From a virus: a stretch of DNA of 36,442 bases. The translations under genes were made by a program, and so were the position numbers. Shown piece by piece: positions 508 to 16,419 of the stretch (positions are counted from its first letter, which is position 1; each line of letters begins with the position of its first letter). Location of the stretch: positions 1 to 36,442 of IMG/VR virus record IMGVR_UViG_3300042562_000223. One strand, 5' to 3'. The notes under the pieces were generated by a model, which was not told the DNA's origin, did no database searches, and saw only the letters and a list, made by a program, of their open reading frames with translations.

Positions 508-1584
508 ATGAAAGTCAAATACTGTGAAGAACGCAAGCGTGCAGACGGCAGCACAGCGTTCATCTTCAACCCACCCGCCTATGTGAAGGCAGCTACAGGT
601 GCGGTCTACACCCTCTTCCCCACGCGCAAGGAAGCCCATGCTCATGCAAATAGCATCTCCGCTGCGTACTGGGACTACAAGGCCAAGGCACGCAACGACA
701 GCATCTACATCGATGAGAACACGGTCGAGGGTCTGGTAGCCCACTACCGTACCACAGAGGCGTGGAAGATCCTGGCAGACAACAGCAAGCGGTCATACGA
801 CCTCATGCTCCGTAACAGCTGTTCGGTTCGTGTAGGCTCTTCCAACATCAATTTCGGTCACATGCTGGCCCGGAATGTTACCGTAGAGCTTGCTGACAAG
901 TTCAAGGAGACGATGCTCAAGCATAAGGGCCGTCACCGTGCCAATGCCTGCTGCAAAGTCATGCGCCGGGTCTTCAACGTGGCTCTACGGCACTCCCGGG
1001 TGCGGGCAAACCCCTTCATCATGCAGAACCTGAAGTCCACGCAGCCCAGAGTGGTGCTGTGGGAGCCAGAGCATATCGATACCTTCATCAAGAAGGCAGA
1101 TGAGATGGACCGCTGGTCGGTCGGGACCATCGCTTTGCTGTGCTACGAGCTGTGTCAGCGGCCTGGAGACATGCGGCAGCTGAAATGGGGCAACTACGTC
1201 AATGGTGTGTTCTCCTTCGTACAGGAGAAGACCAAGGTTGAGATGGAGATCGAAGCCACACCGTCCATCATGGATCGTCTGGCTATGCGGGATCGTGGAG
1301 CAGACGATCAGTTCATCATCATGGATGAGACTGGGCTTCGCGTAGGCTACGACCGGTTCAAGTACTACAAACTAGCGCGTGAGATCATCAAGGCTGCAGA
1401 TCTGCCTGATCATCTTCAGCTGAGGGATCTGCGCCGTACCGGTGCCACTGAGCTTGCAGAGCATGGATGCACTGAGGACGAGCTTAGATCGATCACTGGC
1501 CACCAGGGTCGGGATATCCTGAACACCTACGTCAGACCGACACGCGCAATGGCCCGTAACGCTATGCGGAAGCGGTTCGGCTGA
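508..1584 (+). CDS. int: Tyrosine recombinase (phage integrase)
   Basis: Site-specific recombinase that would join phage attP to the host attB; 358 residues, normal for the family. The C-terminal catalytic domain shows Arg218 in LCQRPGDMR, a beta-hairpin lysine around 241-243, the second Arg309 in RDLRRTGAT, His332 in TGHQ and the nucleophile Tyr341 in NTYVRP. The usual HxxR box reads RxxR here, so the first histidine is replaced by Arg306, a substitution tolerated in some family members. Residues 60-170 are the expected core/arm-binding region. ATG at 508 follows GGGAGCATCACC, a usable ribosome site. The probable attP is not adjacent but 3.7 kb downstream at 5267-5312. The function is confident; the host target is inferred from attP. 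Confidence 0.95.
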   Translation: MKVKYCEERKRADGSTAFIFNPPAYVKAATGAVYTLFPTRKEAHAHANSISAAYWDYKAKARNDSIYIDENTVEGLVAHYRTTEAWKILADNSKRSYDLMLRNSCSVRVGSSNINFGHMLARNVTVELADKFKETMLKHKGRHRANACCKVMRRVFNVALRHSRVRANPFIMQNLKSTQPRVVLWEPEHIDTFIKKADEMDRWSVGTIALLCYELCQRPGDMRQLKWGNYVNGVFSFVQEKTKVEMEIEATPSIMDRLAMRDRGADDQFIIMDETGLRVGYDRFKYYKLAREIIKAADLPDHLQLRDLRRTGATELAEHGCTEDELRSITGHQGRDILNTYVRPTRAMARNAMRKRFG

Positions 1585-1761: not shown

Positions 1762-1929
1762 ATGCATTACATTGCTGGACTGCTGACTGCCATCCTGATG
1801 ATCGCCAAATTAGGTGGGTATGCCACCATTTCGTGGCTCATGGTGTTTGCTCCGCTGCTGATCTGGGCGGGAATGGCCCTGCTCATCCTGATCGTGATGG
1901 TTGCTATTGCTGCTCTGGTGGGCAAATGA
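1762..1929 (+). CDS. Small two-helix membrane protein
   Basis: A 55-residue, very hydrophobic protein with two membrane segments (about residues 4-24 and 27-52) separated by a short turn at residues 24-28, and a C-terminal lysine. The ATG at 1762 is preceded by AAGGGAACTGAG, a good ribosome site; an upstream in-frame ATG at 1720 lacks one. It overlaps thyX by ATGA. Many tailed phages carry similar 50-70-residue, two-helix membrane proteins of unknown role. A holin is possible by topology, but it lies in the early arm, far from the lysis genes, so I do not call it one. Confidence 0.75.
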   Translation: MHYIAGLLTAILMIAKLGGYATISWLMVFAPLLIWAGMALLILIVMVAIAALVGK

Positions 1930-2618
1930 AGGCTGAACTGATCGACCACATGGGATCAGACCTGAGTGTGGTCAACGCTGCACGGGTGTCCTTCGACAAG
2001 GTGAGTGACTGGGAACTGGTTTCTACGGAAGAGATACGGGACGGTAAGCTATATTTTACTACCCACCACCTTGCTCTTCCTGAATCTGACGCCGACCTGA
2101 TCACCTACCTCGCCAAGCACGACCATTGGAGTCCGTTCGCCCATACCGCCATCTCACTGAGGATGCAGGCACCGGTACCGATCCGTACCCAATGCTTCAA
2201 GCATAAGCAGGGCTTGGTCGAGAACGAGGAGAGCCGCAGGTATATCAGCGGTAGGCCACAGCTGTTCGTGCCTGATGAATTCAGGTCGAAGCCTGAGGGA
2301 TCAATCAAGCAGGGCAGCGGTGCGGTTCATGACCAATCCGGGGTGTGGAACATCAGGTACGAGGCTGCGTGTCAGGACAGCATCGATCTCTACAACGAGA
2401 TGATCGCTGATGGCGTATGTCCCGAGCAATGTAGGTTCGTCCTTCCCCAGGGCTGTGAAGTCCAATGGATCTGGACCGGTAATCTCTACGCCTTCGCTAA
2501 CTTTTACCTGAAGCGTACCGATACCCACGCACAGAAAGAGATCCAAGACCTGGCCCGCATGGTGGGCGAGATCATCGAACCGCTGTTTCCGATCAGCTGG
2601 AAATCCCTAGTCTCCTAA
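1926..2618 (+). CDS. thyX: Flavin-dependent thymidylate synthase ThyX
   Basis: Makes dTMP from dUMP using FAD, NADPH and methylene-tetrahydrofolate. The 230-residue length is typical. The start GSDLSVVNAARVSF is characteristic of the family. The signature is present in a variant form, KHKQGLVENEESRRY (92-106), where most bacterial enzymes have RHRxxSxNExSxRY; Asn100, Glu101, Ser103 and Arg105 are conserved. RTDTHAQKEI near 197-206 matches the C-terminal folate/dUMP-binding region. The upstream part of the open frame is non-coding; the start at 1926 forms an ATGA overlap with the membrane protein. Together with class II RNR and MazG it forms the phage nucleotide supply. ThyX is known from marine roseophage SIO1. 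Confidence 0.95.
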   Translation: MKAELIDHMGSDLSVVNAARVSFDKVSDWELVSTEEIRDGKLYFTTHHLALPESDADLITYLAKHDHWSPFAHTAISLRMQAPVPIRTQCFKHKQGLVENEESRRYISGRPQLFVPDEFRSKPEGSIKQGSGAVHDQSGVWNIRYEAACQDSIDLYNEMIADGVCPEQCRFVLPQGCEVQWIWTGNLYAFANFYLKRTDTHAQKEIQDLARMVGEIIEPLFPISWKSLVS

Positions 2619-4051: not shown

Positions 4052-4301
4052 CCTACCAGAGTCTATCTGGGCTGATCCCCCTGACATTTTCGATGACATG
4101 AGCATTTGGTACAACTATCCGACCAAAGGCCAAACCCAATACATCCGCGCAGACACAGTGCAAGCGCAGATCGACGCGGCTGTGAAGGCGGAACGGGAGC
4201 GGTGCGCGAAGGTGGCCTTTGGCTTTGGCGCTGTGGACATGCTGGCCGAACACAAACCGTTCGCTATCGCCGCAGCTATCCGCAAGGGGGACCAGCCATG
4301 A
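4044..4301 (+). CDS. Hypothetical protein ending in IRKGDQP
   Basis: An 85-residue protein. The central helix with AQIDAAVKAERERCAKVA is a pattern common in small phage proteins of unknown function. A clear ribosome site AAAGGAG precedes the ATG. Its last codons, the ribosome site for the next gene and that gene's ATG lie inside a 24-bp sequence that is repeated exactly at the end of the following gene. Function unknown. Confidence 0.7.
   Translation: MSDLPESIWADPPDIFDDMSIWYNYPTKGQTQYIRADTVQAQIDAAVKAERERCAKVAFGFGAVDMLAEHKPFAIAAAIRKGDQP
4278..4301 (+). repeat. 24-bp direct repeat, copy 1
   Basis: Exact 24-bp sequence shared with 4514-4537. It encodes the terminal IRKGDQP and stop, and also carries AAGGGGG plus the overlapping ATGA that starts the next gene. 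Flanking bases differ, so the match ends sharply. Confidence 0.9.
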
Positions 4302-4704: not shown

Positions 4705-4877
4705 ACGACCTAATCAATGACCTAGACCGGATCGCCACCATCGCTGATGGACCACAACTGTACTGGCCGTACGTAGCGATGGTGGCGAGGAAAGCGGCTC
4801 TGACCATCAAAGATATGGAAGCTGAGATTAATCAACTGCAGGAGCAGGTACAGTGCGACAGGATCTCACCGATATGA
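4701..4877 (+). CDS. Small hypothetical protein
   Basis: A 58-residue protein starting MNDLINDLDRIATIADG. It is mostly helical, with a charged C-terminal helix (IKDMEAEINQLQEQVQ) that could form a short coiled coil. GAAGGGGG lies upstream at the usual distance, and the gene overlaps both neighbours by ATGA. Function unknown. Confidence 0.65.
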   Translation: MNDLINDLDRIATIADGPQLYWPYVAMVARKAALTIKDMEAEINQLQEQVQCDRISPI

Positions 4878-5086
4878 CCAAAGAGCCGTGGGAGATGGTG
4901 GTGACTGAGGTACAAGAGAATGAAGACGGTGGAGCCACCATCACCTTCGATCTGGATGCAGGCGCTACGAAGGCTATGACTAATATCGGTCTGCAGTTCG
5001 TGCTATATTGTGCTGCAGCTGGCGTTGATATGCAGGATGCCCTGGACGGGATTCTCGCTAGTAACCCAGCTACCACACCAGCTTAG
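4874..5086 (+). CDS. Small conserved-looking hypothetical protein
   Basis: A 70-residue protein, MTKEPWEMVVTEVQENEDGG followed by a segment with VLYCAAAGVDMQDAL. Short phage proteins with the pattern VxENEDGxA...GLxFVLYCAA...DAxD are familiar as conserved hypotheticals. The start at 4874 gives an ATGA overlap; GTG at 4853, preceded by GGAG, is a credible alternative adding seven residues. It is the last gene before the attP region. Confidence 0.7.
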   Translation: MTKEPWEMVVTEVQENEDGGATITFDLDAGATKAMTNIGLQFVLYCAAAGVDMQDALDGILASNPATTPA

Positions 5087-5266
5087 GTAACAGTTACGCC
5101 CTGGCTGATGGCGGTACGGGAATAGCCCAAGCCGGATCTGATCGAAGTCAAACCCAGGTCCGGTACGCCCCAACTAAGTGAATTTCTAGTGTGGTTACTA
5201 CAGATACCGCCACTTTTACCAACTCCACTACACTCGCGGACACAAAAGTGAATGATATCAGTGGTT

Positions 5267-5312
5267 TGGTTGCGGGGACAGGATTTGAACCTGTGACCTT
5301 CAGGTTATGAGC
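5267..5312 (-). other. attP core: 3' half of an initiator tRNA-Met
   Basis: Read on the minus strand this gives the anticodon loop CTCATAA (anticodon CAT), the 3' anticodon stem CCTGA, variable loop AGGTC, T arm ACAGG-TTCAAAT-CCTGT, the acceptor strand CCCCGCA and ACCA. The A at position 72 of the acceptor strand is a hallmark of initiator tRNA. The sequence left of the anticodon loop does not continue as tRNA, so this is not a gene but the identity segment that restores the host tRNA after integration. Confidence 0.85.
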
Positions 5313-5323
5313 AATCCTATAGA

Positions 5324-5336
5324 TATCAATGGGTTA
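5324..5336 (+). promoter_or_regulatory. IHF binding site (perfect consensus)
   Basis: TATCAATGGGTTA matches WATCAANNNNTTR at every position and sits 11 bases right of the attP core, where IHF would bend the arm. A one-mismatch copy, TATCAGTGGTTTG, lies at 5256-5268 on the left edge of the core. Confidence 0.65.
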
Positions 5337-5421: not shown

Positions 5422-6198
5422 ATGTACAGCTATCGCGAACAGCTTGAGCTTCTGAAGCCTATCCGGATACGGGACGGGGAATCCAAGCGCATCGACTGCC
5501 CCTTCTGTGGTGGTAGAGGCACCTTCACGCTGTCGAACATCGATGGTCGGAAGGTCTGGAACTGCTACAAGGCCAGTTGCCCATCGTCTGGATCTGTGGC
5601 CACGGAGATGAGCCTGGACACGATCAAGCGTCGTCTGAGCGGCACCCCAGCTGATGCATCCAGACCCCTGGTAGCCCTGCCTACGCTCCTGTCTGACCCC
5701 AAGAATCACGATAACGTCCTGACGTATCTGGACAAGGTCGGATCTCTGTATGCCTACGAACAGGGTCTGATCCAGATCAAGTTCGCCCCAGCTGAGAACC
5801 GGGTTCTGTTCTTTTTCCATCATAAGCTCGGGGCCGTAGGACGAGCTTTGGATGATCGCAAGCCGAAATGGAAAGCATACGGGGATGTCTCTGGCCTGCT
5901 TTCGGTAGGGTCAGGACAGGTCGCGGTACTGGTCGAAGATGCTGCTTCTGCCTGTTCTGTAGCAAGGTTGCCACTTTGTTCAGGTTGCGCGCTACTAGGA
6001 ACTTCAGTTAGTGTAACTCATAAGGCTCAACTGCGTGCGTACACCAGGGTCATCATTGCTCTGGATAAGGACGCCAGCCGAAAGGCCGTTGAACTGAGTA
6101 AAAAGCTAGAGGGACTACTAGACGTGCGGATCGCCATGCTAGATGAAGATCTGAAGTATTTAAGCATCGCAACCATAACAAGGATACTCAAACTATGA
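5422..6198 (+). CDS. DNA primase (zinc-binding and TOPRIM domains)
   Basis: Synthesises RNA primers for replication. The 258-residue protein has an N-terminal zinc finger with Cys26, Cys29, Cys48 and Cys53 (CPFCGGRG and NCYKASC), as in T7 gp4 and DnaG-type primases. A TOPRIM domain follows, with the acidic glutamate Glu172 in VLVEDAAS and the paired aspartates Asp215/Asp217 in IIALDKDA. There is no helicase domain in the same chain; the helicase is a separate gene at 6502, so the T7 gp4 arrangement is split here. The start MYSYREQL fits the distance to the zinc finger. It overlaps the next gene by ATGA. Confidence 0.92.
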   Translation: MYSYREQLELLKPIRIRDGESKRIDCPFCGGRGTFTLSNIDGRKVWNCYKASCPSSGSVATEMSLDTIKRRLSGTPADASRPLVALPTLLSDPKNHDNVLTYLDKVGSLYAYEQGLIQIKFAPAENRVLFFFHHKLGAVGRALDDRKPKWKAYGDVSGLLSVGSGQVAVLVEDAASACSVARLPLCSGCALLGTSVSVTHKAQLRAYTRVIIALDKDASRKAVELSKKLEGLLDVRIAMLDEDLKYLSIATITRILKL

Positions 6199-8531: not shown

Positions 8532-8661
8532 GCATGACCTGAAAGAGTATTACGACGAGCTTGCACGCAAAGAAGAAGAAGCTCGACGCAAGAAGGAATC
8601 GATATTCGATTGGCACCTTCGGCAGATCAATGCGGTAATCAAGAGAATGGGCCTTAAATGA
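8521..8661 (+). CDS. Small charged helical protein
   Basis: A 46-residue, highly charged, helical protein with a Glu/Arg/Lys-rich stretch (ARKEEEARRKKE, residues 15-26). ATG 8521 has GGGGAAG just upstream. It overlaps the nuclease by 11 bp and the polymerase by ATGA, so it is almost certainly translated as part of the chain. The basic/acidic helix could contact DNA or the polymerase; this is speculation. Confidence 0.7.
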   Translation: MLSEHDLKEYYDELARKEEEARRKKESIFDWHLRQINAVIKRMGLK

Positions 8662-10775
8662 TCGCCATCGTCCTAGACCTTGAGACAACGGTACAGAAGG
8701 TCGGAGACGATAAGGATAACAGCCCCTACAACCCGGATAACAAATGCGTCTCAGCCCATTGGCTTGAGATCGATCCTCTCGGTATCCCCGGCGCTGTTAG
8801 CACCCTAGTCTTCCATCATAATGAGAAACCTACACCTGACCCCAGAGAGGCCCTACAAGCCGCACTGGACGCCGCTGACGTGCTGGTGGCACACAATGCC
8901 AAGTTCGATGTGAGTTGGCTGCGGGAGATGGGTTTCAGGCTCCCCGCCAGCGTCTGGTGTACCATGATCGGCGAGTATATCTTCGCCCGTGGTCAAAGGG
9001 CCGAGTTGAGCCTTGAGAAGACAGCCCTGCGCCGTCGTGTGACCGCCAAGAAGTCTGAACTGATCCATGACCTGTTCAAGGGCGGTACTGGCTTTGAAGC
9101 CATGCCTCTGGATATCGTGATTGAGTACGCTGAGGCTGACGTACAGTCCTGTGCAGAGGTCTATCTCAAGCAGCTGGACGATCTTGAAGGCGAGAAGAAC
9201 AAAGGCCTGAAGCCAGTCTTCGATCTGATGTTCGACATGCTCGACTTCCTGGTGGAGATCGAAAGCAATGGGGTGCAGATCGACCTGGAAACCCTGTCTG
9301 ACGTGGAGATGGAGTTCCGTGCTGAGAAAGACAAGATTGAGAAGCGTCTGAACGAGATCGTCCGTGATGTGATGGGCGACACCCCGATCAACCTCAACTC
9401 TGGCATCGACATGACCAGGGTGGTCTACAGTCGTCGGGTCAATGACCGTGAGCTTCATCAGAAGATGTTCAACATCGGCCTGAACGCTGTCGGTAAGCCT
9501 CTGCCACCACCCAGGATGAAGCCGACTGAATTCACGGCTGCGGTACGGGCTACAACAGAGATTGTGTATCGTACTGTCCTGCATTGCTGCCCGGTCTGCA
9601 AAGGCAGCGGTAAACAATGCAAATTCACCAAGGCAGGGCAGTTATACAAGGTTCAGCCACGATGCATGGAGTGTGGTGGTGGTGGTGCGTTGTACCTATC
9701 TGATGGCAAGATCGCAGGACTACGTTTGGTGCCTGCTGGCCCAGCTGATGCATCGATCAATGGCTTCAAGGTGGACAAGCTCACGATCAAGGCTCTGATC
9801 GTTCAGGCTGAGATCAAGAACCGTCCAGTAGCTGTGGAATTCCTCACCAAGATATCTCGCCTGAACGCCGTTAACACCTACCTGGACAGCTTCGTGAAGG
9901 GCATCCAGACATGGACCAGGCACGACAGCGTCCTGCATCCCAATTTCAACCAGACGGTAGCTGCAACAGCACGCCTATCATCCACCAAGCCGAACTTTCA
10001 GAACCAGCCTAAGGGTGGGAAATTCCCAGTACGCAAGTGCGTGGTCAGCCGGTTCGAAGATGGTCAAATCCTTGAGGCAGACTTCAGCGGGTTGGAGTTC
10101 AGGGTGGCAGGGGAATTGTCCCGTGACCCGCAGATCATCGATGACATCAAGAACGGGAAGGATGTGCATAAGCAGACTGCTTCTATCATCCGCCAGAAGC
10201 CCGTAAGTGAGGTGACTAAGGATGAGCGGCAGGGAGCCAAGGCCTACACCTTCGCCCCCTTGTACGGTGGAATGGGAGCCAATGAAGCACCTCACGTCCA
10301 GAAGTACTTTCAGGAATTCTTCCAGATCTACAAAGGGCTTGCAGTGTACCATAAGACCCTGATGGATGGGGTGCTGCACGACGGCATTGTACGGATCCCC
10401 TCAGGCCGTGAGTACATCTGGCCCAGCGCCAAACGTCTTCGCAATGGTCGGATCACCAACGCCACCCAGGTGGTCAACTACCCGGTCCAGGGCTTTGCCA
10501 CAGGTGACATCGTACCTCTCGCCTGTATACGGGCTGTGCGGGCATTCAGGGAGCGTCAGCTGCGGTCCAAGCTGATCCTGACCGTCCACGATTCCATCGT
10601 AGCTGATGTCTATCCAGGTGAGGTCGAGGCGGTAGCTGAGGCTCTGTCATGGGCCATGAAAGGGGTCAAGGATGAGATCCTAACCCGCTTCGGCTACGAG
10701 TTCGTGTTGCCCTTGGATATTGAGATCGAAGCCGGAAAAAACTGGATGGAAATGTCGTCTGTACCGTTGACTTGA
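8658..10775 (+). CDS. Family A DNA polymerase with 3'-5' exonuclease
   Basis: Replicative polymerase, 705 residues, close to T7 gp5 in length. Exonuclease motifs are Asp7/Glu9 (VLDLET), AHNAKFD (78-84) and YAEAD (157-161). Polymerase motif A is ADFSGLEFR with Asp475; motif B has Arg524, Lys528, Phe532 and Tyr536 (KAYTFAPLYGG); motif C is TVHDS with His644/Asp645. The residue equivalent to E. coli Pol I Phe762 is phenylalanine. A segment at about 305-350 carries CPVCKGSG and CMECGGGG (Cys311, 314, 336, 339), a DnaJ-like zinc-ribbon placed between the exonuclease and the palm, which is unusual. The start is ATG 8658 by ATGA overlap. No 5'-3' exonuclease domain is present. Confidence 0.96.
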   Translation: MIAIVLDLETTVQKVGDDKDNSPYNPDNKCVSAHWLEIDPLGIPGAVSTLVFHHNEKPTPDPREALQAALDAADVLVAHNAKFDVSWLREMGFRLPASVWCTMIGEYIFARGQRAELSLEKTALRRRVTAKKSELIHDLFKGGTGFEAMPLDIVIEYAEADVQSCAEVYLKQLDDLEGEKNKGLKPVFDLMFDMLDFLVEIESNGVQIDLETLSDVEMEFRAEKDKIEKRLNEIVRDVMGDTPINLNSGIDMTRVVYSRRVNDRELHQKMFNIGLNAVGKPLPPPRMKPTEFTAAVRATTEIVYRTVLHCCPVCKGSGKQCKFTKAGQLYKVQPRCMECGGGGALYLSDGKIAGLRLVPAGPADASINGFKVDKLTIKALIVQAEIKNRPVAVEFLTKISRLNAVNTYLDSFVKGIQTWTRHDSVLHPNFNQTVAATARLSSTKPNFQNQPKGGKFPVRKCVVSRFEDGQILEADFSGLEFRVAGELSRDPQIIDDIKNGKDVHKQTASIIRQKPVSEVTKDERQGAKAYTFAPLYGGMGANEAPHVQKYFQEFFQIYKGLAVYHKTLMDGVLHDGIVRIPSGREYIWPSAKRLRNGRITNATQVVNYPVQGFATGDIVPLACIRAVRAFRERQLRSKLILTVHDSIVADVYPGEVEAVAEALSWAMKGVKDEILTRFGYEFVLPLDIEIEAGKNWMEMSSVPLT

Positions 10776-14182: not shown

Positions 14183-15940
14183 ATGAACATCAGTACCAAA
14201 GTATACGGACCCACCCTCACAATCTCTGAGGACATCCACGCGATGAAATATCGCGGTAAGAACGAGACATTCAAAGAGGCCATGACCCGGGTGGCAGACG
14301 CCCTGAAGGATGACGAGAACCACTTCAAGGCCTTCCGAGATATCCTGTACGATATGCGCTTTCTCCCAGCTGGCCGTGTACAGGCTGCTATGGGAGCGCC
14401 GCGTGAGGTTACCCCGTACAACTGCTTCGTATCCGGTACGATTGAAGACAGTATGGGCGGCATCATGCAGGCAGCGTGGGATGCATCTGAGACCATGCGC
14501 CTTGGTGGCGGTATCGGGTATGACTTCTCGACCCTACGCCCCCGTGGAGCATTGATCAGGAGCCTCGATTCCCGCTCCTCAGGCCCCATCAGCTTTATGG
14601 GTATCTTCGATGCTGTCTGCAAAACCATCGCCTCTGCAGGGCATCGTCGGGGCGCTCAGATGGGGGTCATGCGGGTTGACCATCCCGACATCGAAGAGTT
14701 CATCCGCGCCAAGAACAACAGCACAGACCTGACCCAGTTCAACATCTCTGTCGGGGTCACCGACGAGTTTATGGAAGCAGTCCGGTCCAATGCGATGTTT
14801 GACCTCAAGTTCGATGGCCGTGTCTACAAGACAGTCAAGGCCACCGCTCTGTGGGACGACATCCTACGCAGCACCTGGGACTGGGCTGAACCCGGTATTC
14901 TGTTCATCGACCGGATCAATCGGAAGAACAACCTATGGTACTGTGAGACAATCGCTACAACCAATCCGTGTGGCGAACAACCGCTGCCCCCATACGGAGC
15001 CTGCCTGCTTGGGTCATGGAACCTGACCAAGTACATCCAGAAAGGTGCAGACGGAAACTTCTGGTTCAATGAAGGGATGCTGATTGCCGATATCCCCCAG
15101 GTCGTCCGGGCTATGGACAACATCATCGACAGGGCGATCTACCCACTGCCGCAACAGAAGCATGAGGCGCAGAGCAAGCGTCGTATGGGCATCGGTGTAA
15201 CCGGTCTGGCCAATGCCCTAGAGGCTCTTGGGTACCCATACGGTAGCGAGGAGTTCCTTCAGAAGACTGCCCACATCATGGGGATCATCCGTGACGGGTG
15301 CTACTCCGCATCGATCAAGCTGGCCGTTGAGAAGGGTCCGTTCCCTCTCTACGACAAGCGTCTGCTGGAGAGCGAATTCGCCAAGACCCTGCCCTTAGAT
15401 ATCCGTGCAGGTATTGAGCAGAACGGTATCCGTAACTCCCACCTTCTGTCTGTGGCTCCTACAGGCACGATCAGCCTGTCTGCCGATAACGTATCCTCTG
15501 GGATTGAACCGGTCTTCAGCCATTACTACGACCGTACCATCCAGACGTTTGATGGACCCCGTGTTGAGCGGGTTGAGGACTACGGGTATAGGACATTTAA
15601 GGTGAAAGGCCAGACTGCTAACGAACTGTCCGTGTTCTCTCACGTTAAGGTTCTGAATGTAGCCAGCGCGTATGTGGACTCTGCCTGCTCCAAGACCTGC
15701 AACGTCGGGGATGATGTATCCTGGGAAGACTTCAAGGATGTCTACATGCAGGCGTACCTTGGTGGCTCGTCTGGATGCACGACATTCCGGGCATCGGGTA
15801 AACGGTACGGTATCCTGAATGCGGCAGCTTCAGAGGACGTAGCAGAAGAGCCAGCAAAGGCTGAGGATACCTTCATTGACGAGAAGGAAGGCGGGGCCTG
15901 TTACTTCGATCCTGCAACCGGCCTGCGGACCTGTGAATGA
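14183..15940 (+). CDS. nrdJ: Class II (adenosylcobalamin-dependent) ribonucleotide reductase
   Basis: Converts ribonucleotides to deoxyribonucleotides. The 585-residue protein lacks an ATP cone and has no nrdB-like partner nearby. Cys263 in NPCGE is the expected thiyl radical residue, with Cys81 (YNCF) and Cys274, exactly 11 residues after Cys263, as the redox pair; this spacing equals that of Cys408/Cys419 in the Lactobacillus leichmannii class II enzyme. A C-terminal Cys573/Cys584 pair (ACYFDP and TCE) would pass electrons from thioredoxin. The class II assignment is inferred from single-gene context and layout. Activity would need host vitamin B12. A similar gene is known in roseophage SIO1. 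Confidence 0.92.
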   Translation: MNISTKVYGPTLTISEDIHAMKYRGKNETFKEAMTRVADALKDDENHFKAFRDILYDMRFLPAGRVQAAMGAPREVTPYNCFVSGTIEDSMGGIMQAAWDASETMRLGGGIGYDFSTLRPRGALIRSLDSRSSGPISFMGIFDAVCKTIASAGHRRGAQMGVMRVDHPDIEEFIRAKNNSTDLTQFNISVGVTDEFMEAVRSNAMFDLKFDGRVYKTVKATALWDDILRSTWDWAEPGILFIDRINRKNNLWYCETIATTNPCGEQPLPPYGACLLGSWNLTKYIQKGADGNFWFNEGMLIADIPQVVRAMDNIIDRAIYPLPQQKHEAQSKRRMGIGVTGLANALEALGYPYGSEEFLQKTAHIMGIIRDGCYSASIKLAVEKGPFPLYDKRLLESEFAKTLPLDIRAGIEQNGIRNSHLLSVAPTGTISLSADNVSSGIEPVFSHYYDRTIQTFDGPRVERVEDYGYRTFKVKGQTANELSVFSHVKVLNVASAYVDSACSKTCNVGDDVSWEDFKDVYMQAYLGGSSGCTTFRASGKRYGILNAAASEDVAEEPAKAEDTFIDEKEGGACYFDPATGLRTCE

Positions 15941-16419
15941 TGCTGATCTATAGTGCCACGAATACTGTGACTGGCATGAAGTACTATGGGCGAACGAAAC
16001 ATTCGCTGGCCCATAGGAAATCTCAGCATGAACGGTCTAGGTATACGCCGAAGAGCGAGTTCCACAGAGCCATGAATGAGTACGGCCTAGATAGCTTCGA
16101 ATGGAATGAGGAGATCATCTGCAACAACGAGGAAGCGTCGTACCGGTTGGAGCAGATGTGCATCTCAATGTGGGAGCCAGAGCAGCTGTACAATCGGTCT
16201 GCAGGCGGAAAGTACCCTGCCTACGGCATGAGACATTCGGACAAGACTAAGGAGATCTGCGGTGAGTACGCGAAGCAAAGATGGGACGGTAAACGAGCCG
16301 CCGACAAGTACCCAGAATGGGTTTTCCTTCTTACTTCTTATAAGGAAGCCAGTCAGTTCGGAGTACCTAAGACAACTTGGTACCGACAGCGCGGGAAACG
16401 TACCGACCTAACGAACTGA
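15937..16419 (+). CDS. GIY-YIG endonuclease, probably homing
   Basis: A 160-residue protein. The N-terminal GIY-YIG module is visible as LIYSATNTVTGMKYYGRT (IY and YYG), followed by a basic HRKSQH segment and a glutamate-containing helix (RLEQMCISMW) that would carry the metal-binding Glu. The C-terminal half (about 90-160) includes RHSDKTKEICGEYAKQRW and KEASQFGVPKTTWYRQRGK, which looks like the DNA-binding repeats and helix-turn-helix of free-standing phage homing endonucleases. It overlaps the RNR stop by ATGA. Such genes often sit beside nucleotide metabolism genes and cut phages lacking them. Confidence 0.85.
   Translation: MMLIYSATNTVTGMKYYGRTKHSLAHRKSQHERSRYTPKSEFHRAMNEYGLDSFEWNEEIICNNEEASYRLEQMCISMWEPEQLYNRSAGGKYPAYGMRHSDKTKEICGEYAKQRWDGKRAADKYPEWVFLLTSYKEASQFGVPKTTWYRQRGKRTDLTN

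Follow-up and report, generated by a model that had tools for sequence, protein, structure and literature searches.

The segment at positions 5267 to 5312 of the DNA analysed here, a virus record of 36,442 bases and 54.5% GC (hereafter the window), is very likely the attP core of a temperate HMO-2011-type phage that integrates at the initiator tRNA-fMet gene of its host and rebuilds the tRNA in the process. Its minus strand (5312 to 5267) reads GCTCATAACCTGAAGGTCACAGGTTCAAATCCTGTCCCCGCAACCA, which is the 3' half of an initiator tRNA gene from the anticodon stem-loop to CCA, aligns with the corresponding segments of the phages CRP-3, CRP-212 and CRP-235, and is identical along its full length to alphaproteobacterial initiator genes (46/46 positions). 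The initial annotation, which had recognized this half gene from the letters of the window, was exact on this point. The integration at tRNA-fMet that it predicted, with reconstruction of the tRNA, is supported by the integrase on the same element, by the exact initiator half, by its recurrence in the three CRP phages and in most relatives (69/80), and by the wet-lab integration of CRP-3; that the window phage itself integrates is what we infer from these observations.

The half-tRNA segment and the phage that carries it

When up to three mismatches were allowed, the segment was the sole match in the window and none of 100 dinucleotide-preserving shuffles contained a match; scanning all 36.4 kb with a generic T-arm-to-CCA pattern likewise returned this site only. 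The 5' half is absent, as the initial annotation had stated. Neither ARAGORN nor Rfam calls a tRNA in the window, which is what one would expect of half a gene. The segment is intergenic, since it is bounded on one side by a small ORF (4853-5086) and on the other by the primase gene (5422-6198). The earlier statement that its stems are complementary holds for the T stem (ACAGG/CCTGT), which is paired at 5/5 positions; the anticodon and acceptor stems are without their 5' strands, and hence the T stem alone could be checked. Comparison with CAT tRNAs from Rhodobacteraceae showed that the core agrees with the Ile2-type tRNA at 32/46 positions and with the elongator tRNA-Met at 30/46, as against 46/46 for the initiator. 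When a host 5' half is joined to the window core, ARAGORN reads a full tRNA with the anticodon CAT; the fragment, being identical to host halves, would restore the gene. Among the matches listed when a 48-nt version of the core was compared with genome loci, the 5' half common in initiator genes, CGCGGGGTGGAGCAGCCCGGTAGCTCGTCAG, is found in at least 60.

The element encodes a tyrosine integrase (508..1584, plus strand, 358 aa; PHROG 1 integrase, E=7.9e-30) with an intact reading frame, in which R218, K241, R309, H332 and Y341, which we take from knowledge of the family to be the catalytic set, are invariant in a four-row alignment. The nearest annotated integrases are those of CRP-3, CRP-235 and CRP-212 (42-46% identity). 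Between int and attP lies a ThyX-type thymidylate synthase gene (1833..2618, plus strand; PHROG 85, E=1.7e-65), as it does in CRP-3, CRP-212 and CRP-235, while the DNA primase gene (plus strand; PHROG 47, E=5.7e-21) adjoins attP, an adjacency common to the CRP relatives. The DNA polymerase (8658..10775, plus strand; 58% identity to CRP-212) has the unusual HMO-2011-type architecture, namely the partial DnaJ domain with two CXXCXGXG motifs (here at residues 311 and 336) that typifies this group (PMC6918029). Collinearity is also of the HMO-2011 type, with 19 of the 41 window ORFs matching CRP-212 in the same order. Further genes encode a DnaB-like helicase, a ribonucleotide reductase, PhoH and tail proteins. 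An ORF adjoining the ribonucleotide reductase gene (15937-16419, plus strand) has a start (LIYSATNTVTGMKYYGRT) that by eye resembles a GIY-YIG endonuclease. The window is a 36.4-kb fragment, the genomes of relatives being about 53-55 kb, and at its end a tail-region ORF runs off the edge; the core capsid, portal and terminase genes would lie beyond it.

In the proposed mechanism, the phage integrase would recombine the attP core with the identical stretch in the host initiator tRNA-fMet gene (attB), with the crossover probably falling in or beside the anticodon loop. The host 3' half, from the loop to CCA, would be replaced by the phage-borne one, the tRNA would be rebuilt with its sequence unchanged, and the displaced host half would mark the far end (attR). 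The placement of the crossover is suggested by the block of identity, which begins at or near the anticodon loop, and by the relatives L061 and L075, whose sites are common up to TCATAAC and then diverge.

Conservation of the site and competing explanations

A single-sequence integrase search of viral contigs recovered no relatives, and the four-row integrase alignment searched against viral contigs recovered 80 loci (IMG/VR). The fMet half is present in 69 of these, in 68 cases on the minus strand and 258-2420 bp downstream of int, and a complete tRNA in none of the 80. In one relative (L066) attP, primase and helicase are inverted as a block with respect to int and thyX, and attP has kept its place next to the primase. 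CRP-3, CRP-212 and CRP-235 carry an fMet-type half in the same place and on the same strand as the window; no tRNA 3' half was found within the first 12 kb of HMO-2011, CRP-1 and CRP-2. The integrases of three relatives (L062, L087 and L109) are 95-97% identical to those of half-bearing ones, yet neither an fMet half nor the 3' half of any other tRNA could be detected in these three; L062 and L087 are missing the homologous intergenic stretch ahead of the primase.

The 69 IMG/VR relatives, the window and the three CRP phages together provide 73 sites, in all of which the sharp half-gene boundary near the anticodon loop recurs. The T stem is paired at 5/5 positions in 73/73 of them, with six stem alleles, a count that does not amount to 73 independent events because the sites share ancestry. 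The intact pairing would follow naturally from selection for a functional tRNA, since integration swaps the host 3' half for that of the phage; recopying from hosts is another possible reason. Position 66 is C in the window and T in most phages, matching the G7 and A7 alleles of host fMet genes, both of which exist.

Two short motifs flank the core, and they are read as candidate arm-type or accessory sites. TAA[GC]N4TG, represented on the P side of the window core by TAACCCATTG (5327..5336, minus strand), occurs in 29 of 35 dereplicated sites, 28 of which have it precisely at -31 relative to core position 1 (shuffle mean 0.34, maximum 4), and YTGAHHT, represented on the P' side by CTGATATCATT (5251..5261, minus strand), lies no more than 24 nt past CCA in 20 of the 35 (shuffle mean 1.7, maximum 7); both motifs were picked after viewing the same alignment, so that the shuffle comparison overstates their significance. 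The fixed spacing of TAA[GC]N4TG is a stronger point than the shuffle statistics. A wider inverted-repeat model of the att site was left unused, since the positions of core-type sites could not be assigned confidently.

It is very improbable that the site targets another CAU tRNA, i.e. the elongator tRNA-Met or tRNA-Ile2. All three tRNAs have a CAT anticodon and close integrase relatives do possess an Ile2-type half, but the window core agrees throughout with the initiator and departs from the other two at many positions (the counts given above), and the elongator loop is ATCATAA, not CTCATAA. The notion of a degraded tRNA gene, once carried by the phage for translation, draws on the frequency of tRNA genes in phages, many of those in the phage collection being tRNA-Met; it is scarcely to be credited against a perfect 3' half with the 5' half absent and one sharp boundary in 73 sites, and against the lack of a full tRNA in every one of the relatives.

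Several points count against the attP reading itself: the publication on CRP-3 (PMC6918029) does not call the tRNA-Met(CAT) target an initiator, the window is a fragment, the genomes searched yielded no integrated relative, and attP is 3.7 kb from int, a distance greater than in all relatives measured. The last two, along with the three relatives that have int and no detectable tRNA half, would fit a non-functional leftover, in which integration has been lost and the half tRNA is the relic of an older att site. We regard this as quite unlikely in view of the 46/46 identity, the intact integrase frame with its conserved catalytic residues and the T-stem pairing that is preserved across the clade. 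CRP-3, moreover, is known to integrate (PMC6918029).

Integrated copies, hosts and changes of target

With the segment taken as an attP core directed at the initiator gene, prophages of this type would be expected downstream of tRNA-fMet genes, as the initial annotation had anticipated. None was found in genome contigs, in 395 family genomes or in 289 class genomes, searches which cannot prove absence in nature. A scan of the genome contigs with the four-row alignment found no relatives of the window integrase, and the family and class genomes yielded distant integrases only. In most cases where a tRNA was called, these integrases adjoin tRNAs for Thr, Arg, Leu or Glu, or other tRNAs, and the nearest cellular integrases are by tRNA-Thr or tRNA-Arg, or are without a called tRNA. 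No integrated copy bounded by a tRNA and a displaced fragment was seen in these genomes, the case of CRP-3 having been shown by others. Potential target genes are nevertheless present, since CRP-3-type 45-mers occur in 122 of the 395 family genomes and the exact window core in 17 of them.

The exact core is common to many Alphaproteobacteria, for which reason host identification through it failed and a Rhodobacterales host is to be considered plausible; the sequence narrows the host to Alphaproteobacteria that have this fMet allele and no further. Fragments that match the core exactly but lack the initiator 5' half are also present in Rhodobacteraceae genomes and unrelated viral contigs, implying that other elements use initiator genes too. 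One Roseovarius genome (G001; L256, L259, L260) has five exact core copies, two of them in complete tRNA genes; the remaining three are without a called tRNA, which suggests displaced halves from other elements.

Of the 11 relatives without an fMet half, eight have the 3' half of a CAU tRNA that is probably tRNA-Ile2; that these are eight separate contigs makes contig chimerism a less likely source. ARAGORN labels initiator, elongator and Ile2-type genes all as tRNA-Met, and the Ile2-type label of the GGGCCTG... gene is our assignment, made because the genomes G007 and G312 both have, besides this gene, an initiator gene and a separate elongator gene, and on account of its C4-G69 and C5-G68 pairs, which are presumably determinants for lysidine synthetase. 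This label is scattered on the integrase tree, on which six changes are needed and at least five are forced by well-supported branches. The integrases of L061 (fMet; attP 2105-2143, minus strand) and L075 (Ile2-type; attP near 4270, minus strand) are 85% identical and the DNA around their sites shows about 88% identity over 550 bp; the alignment agrees up to TCATAAC, differs across the tRNA half and agrees again past CCA. The fMet and Ile2-type CAU tRNAs have CTCATAAC in common, both possessing the loop CTCATAA followed by a C.

Judging from these alignments, members of the integrase clade might swap tRNA targets by exchanging the tRNA half alone inside a conserved attP frame, a proposal to which we give slightly less than an even chance. 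The shared overlap sequence (CTCATAA plus C) could permit occasional integration at a second CAU tRNA gene, after which, in a possible two-step route, the chimeric tRNA would be repaired and excision would take along the new half. The integrases of the clade are in any event not tied to fMet, as some relatives carry Ile2-type or Asn halves. Nor is the target new in kind, since CRP-3 already shows it.

The window is a further, divergent member of an abundant group of marine phages, and it indicates that one integrase clade usually attaches at the initiator tRNA gene, CRP-3 being no special case in this respect. From the attP allele the fMet allele of the host can be predicted, which for uncultured phages gives a clue to the host that can be put to the test, and sister pairs that differ in their CAU tRNA half provide a natural system for studying how integrases change target. 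The finding is ordinary in kind and well supported, the target-switching pairs being its most interesting by-product.

Comparison with known integrating elements

The closest precedent is CRP-3, a Roseobacter phage of HMO-2011-type subgroup III, for which hybrid reads and PCR have demonstrated integration at a tRNA-Met(CAT) gene of the host, RCA strain FZCC0040, with an att core overlapping the 3' end of that gene (PMC6918029), a result repeated in PMC9038755. The target is described there as tRNA-Met(CAT); from sequence, it is probably the initiator. CRP-3 and the window have the same gene order (int-thyX-attP-primase-helicase-polymerase), an fMet-type 3' half on the same strand and integrases with 46-47% identity. 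They differ in the start of the core, which in CRP-3 is identical from about tRNA position 39 and in the window from the anticodon stem, in its allele (GTAGG/CCTAC with T66 in CRP-3, ACAGG/CCTGT with C66 in the window), and in the int-attP spacing, which is longer in the window. The Roseobacter phages CRP-212 and CRP-235 share the arrangement and the fMet-type half, with integrases 42-47% identical to that of the window; no report of their integration was found in the literature. The Roseobacter phage CRP-738 has a related integrase (33%) and a minus-strand tRNA 3' half between int and primase, which unlike the fMet half of the window derives from tRNA-Asn(GTT). This half (L054; at 2961, minus strand) is likely the attP of that cultured roseophage.

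More broadly, elements of this kind as a standard rebuild the tDNA that they split from a fragment which the phage carries, as described by Islander (PMC4383910). The anticodon-centred 'A' class islands of that collection resemble the window in having a tyrosine integrase, a 3' tDNA fragment in attP and a restored tRNA (PMC4383910), whereas attP in the window is several genes away from int, unlike in those islands. Both principle and target were already known through CRP-3, and the window is a new, divergent member that uses a mechanism which is not itself new.
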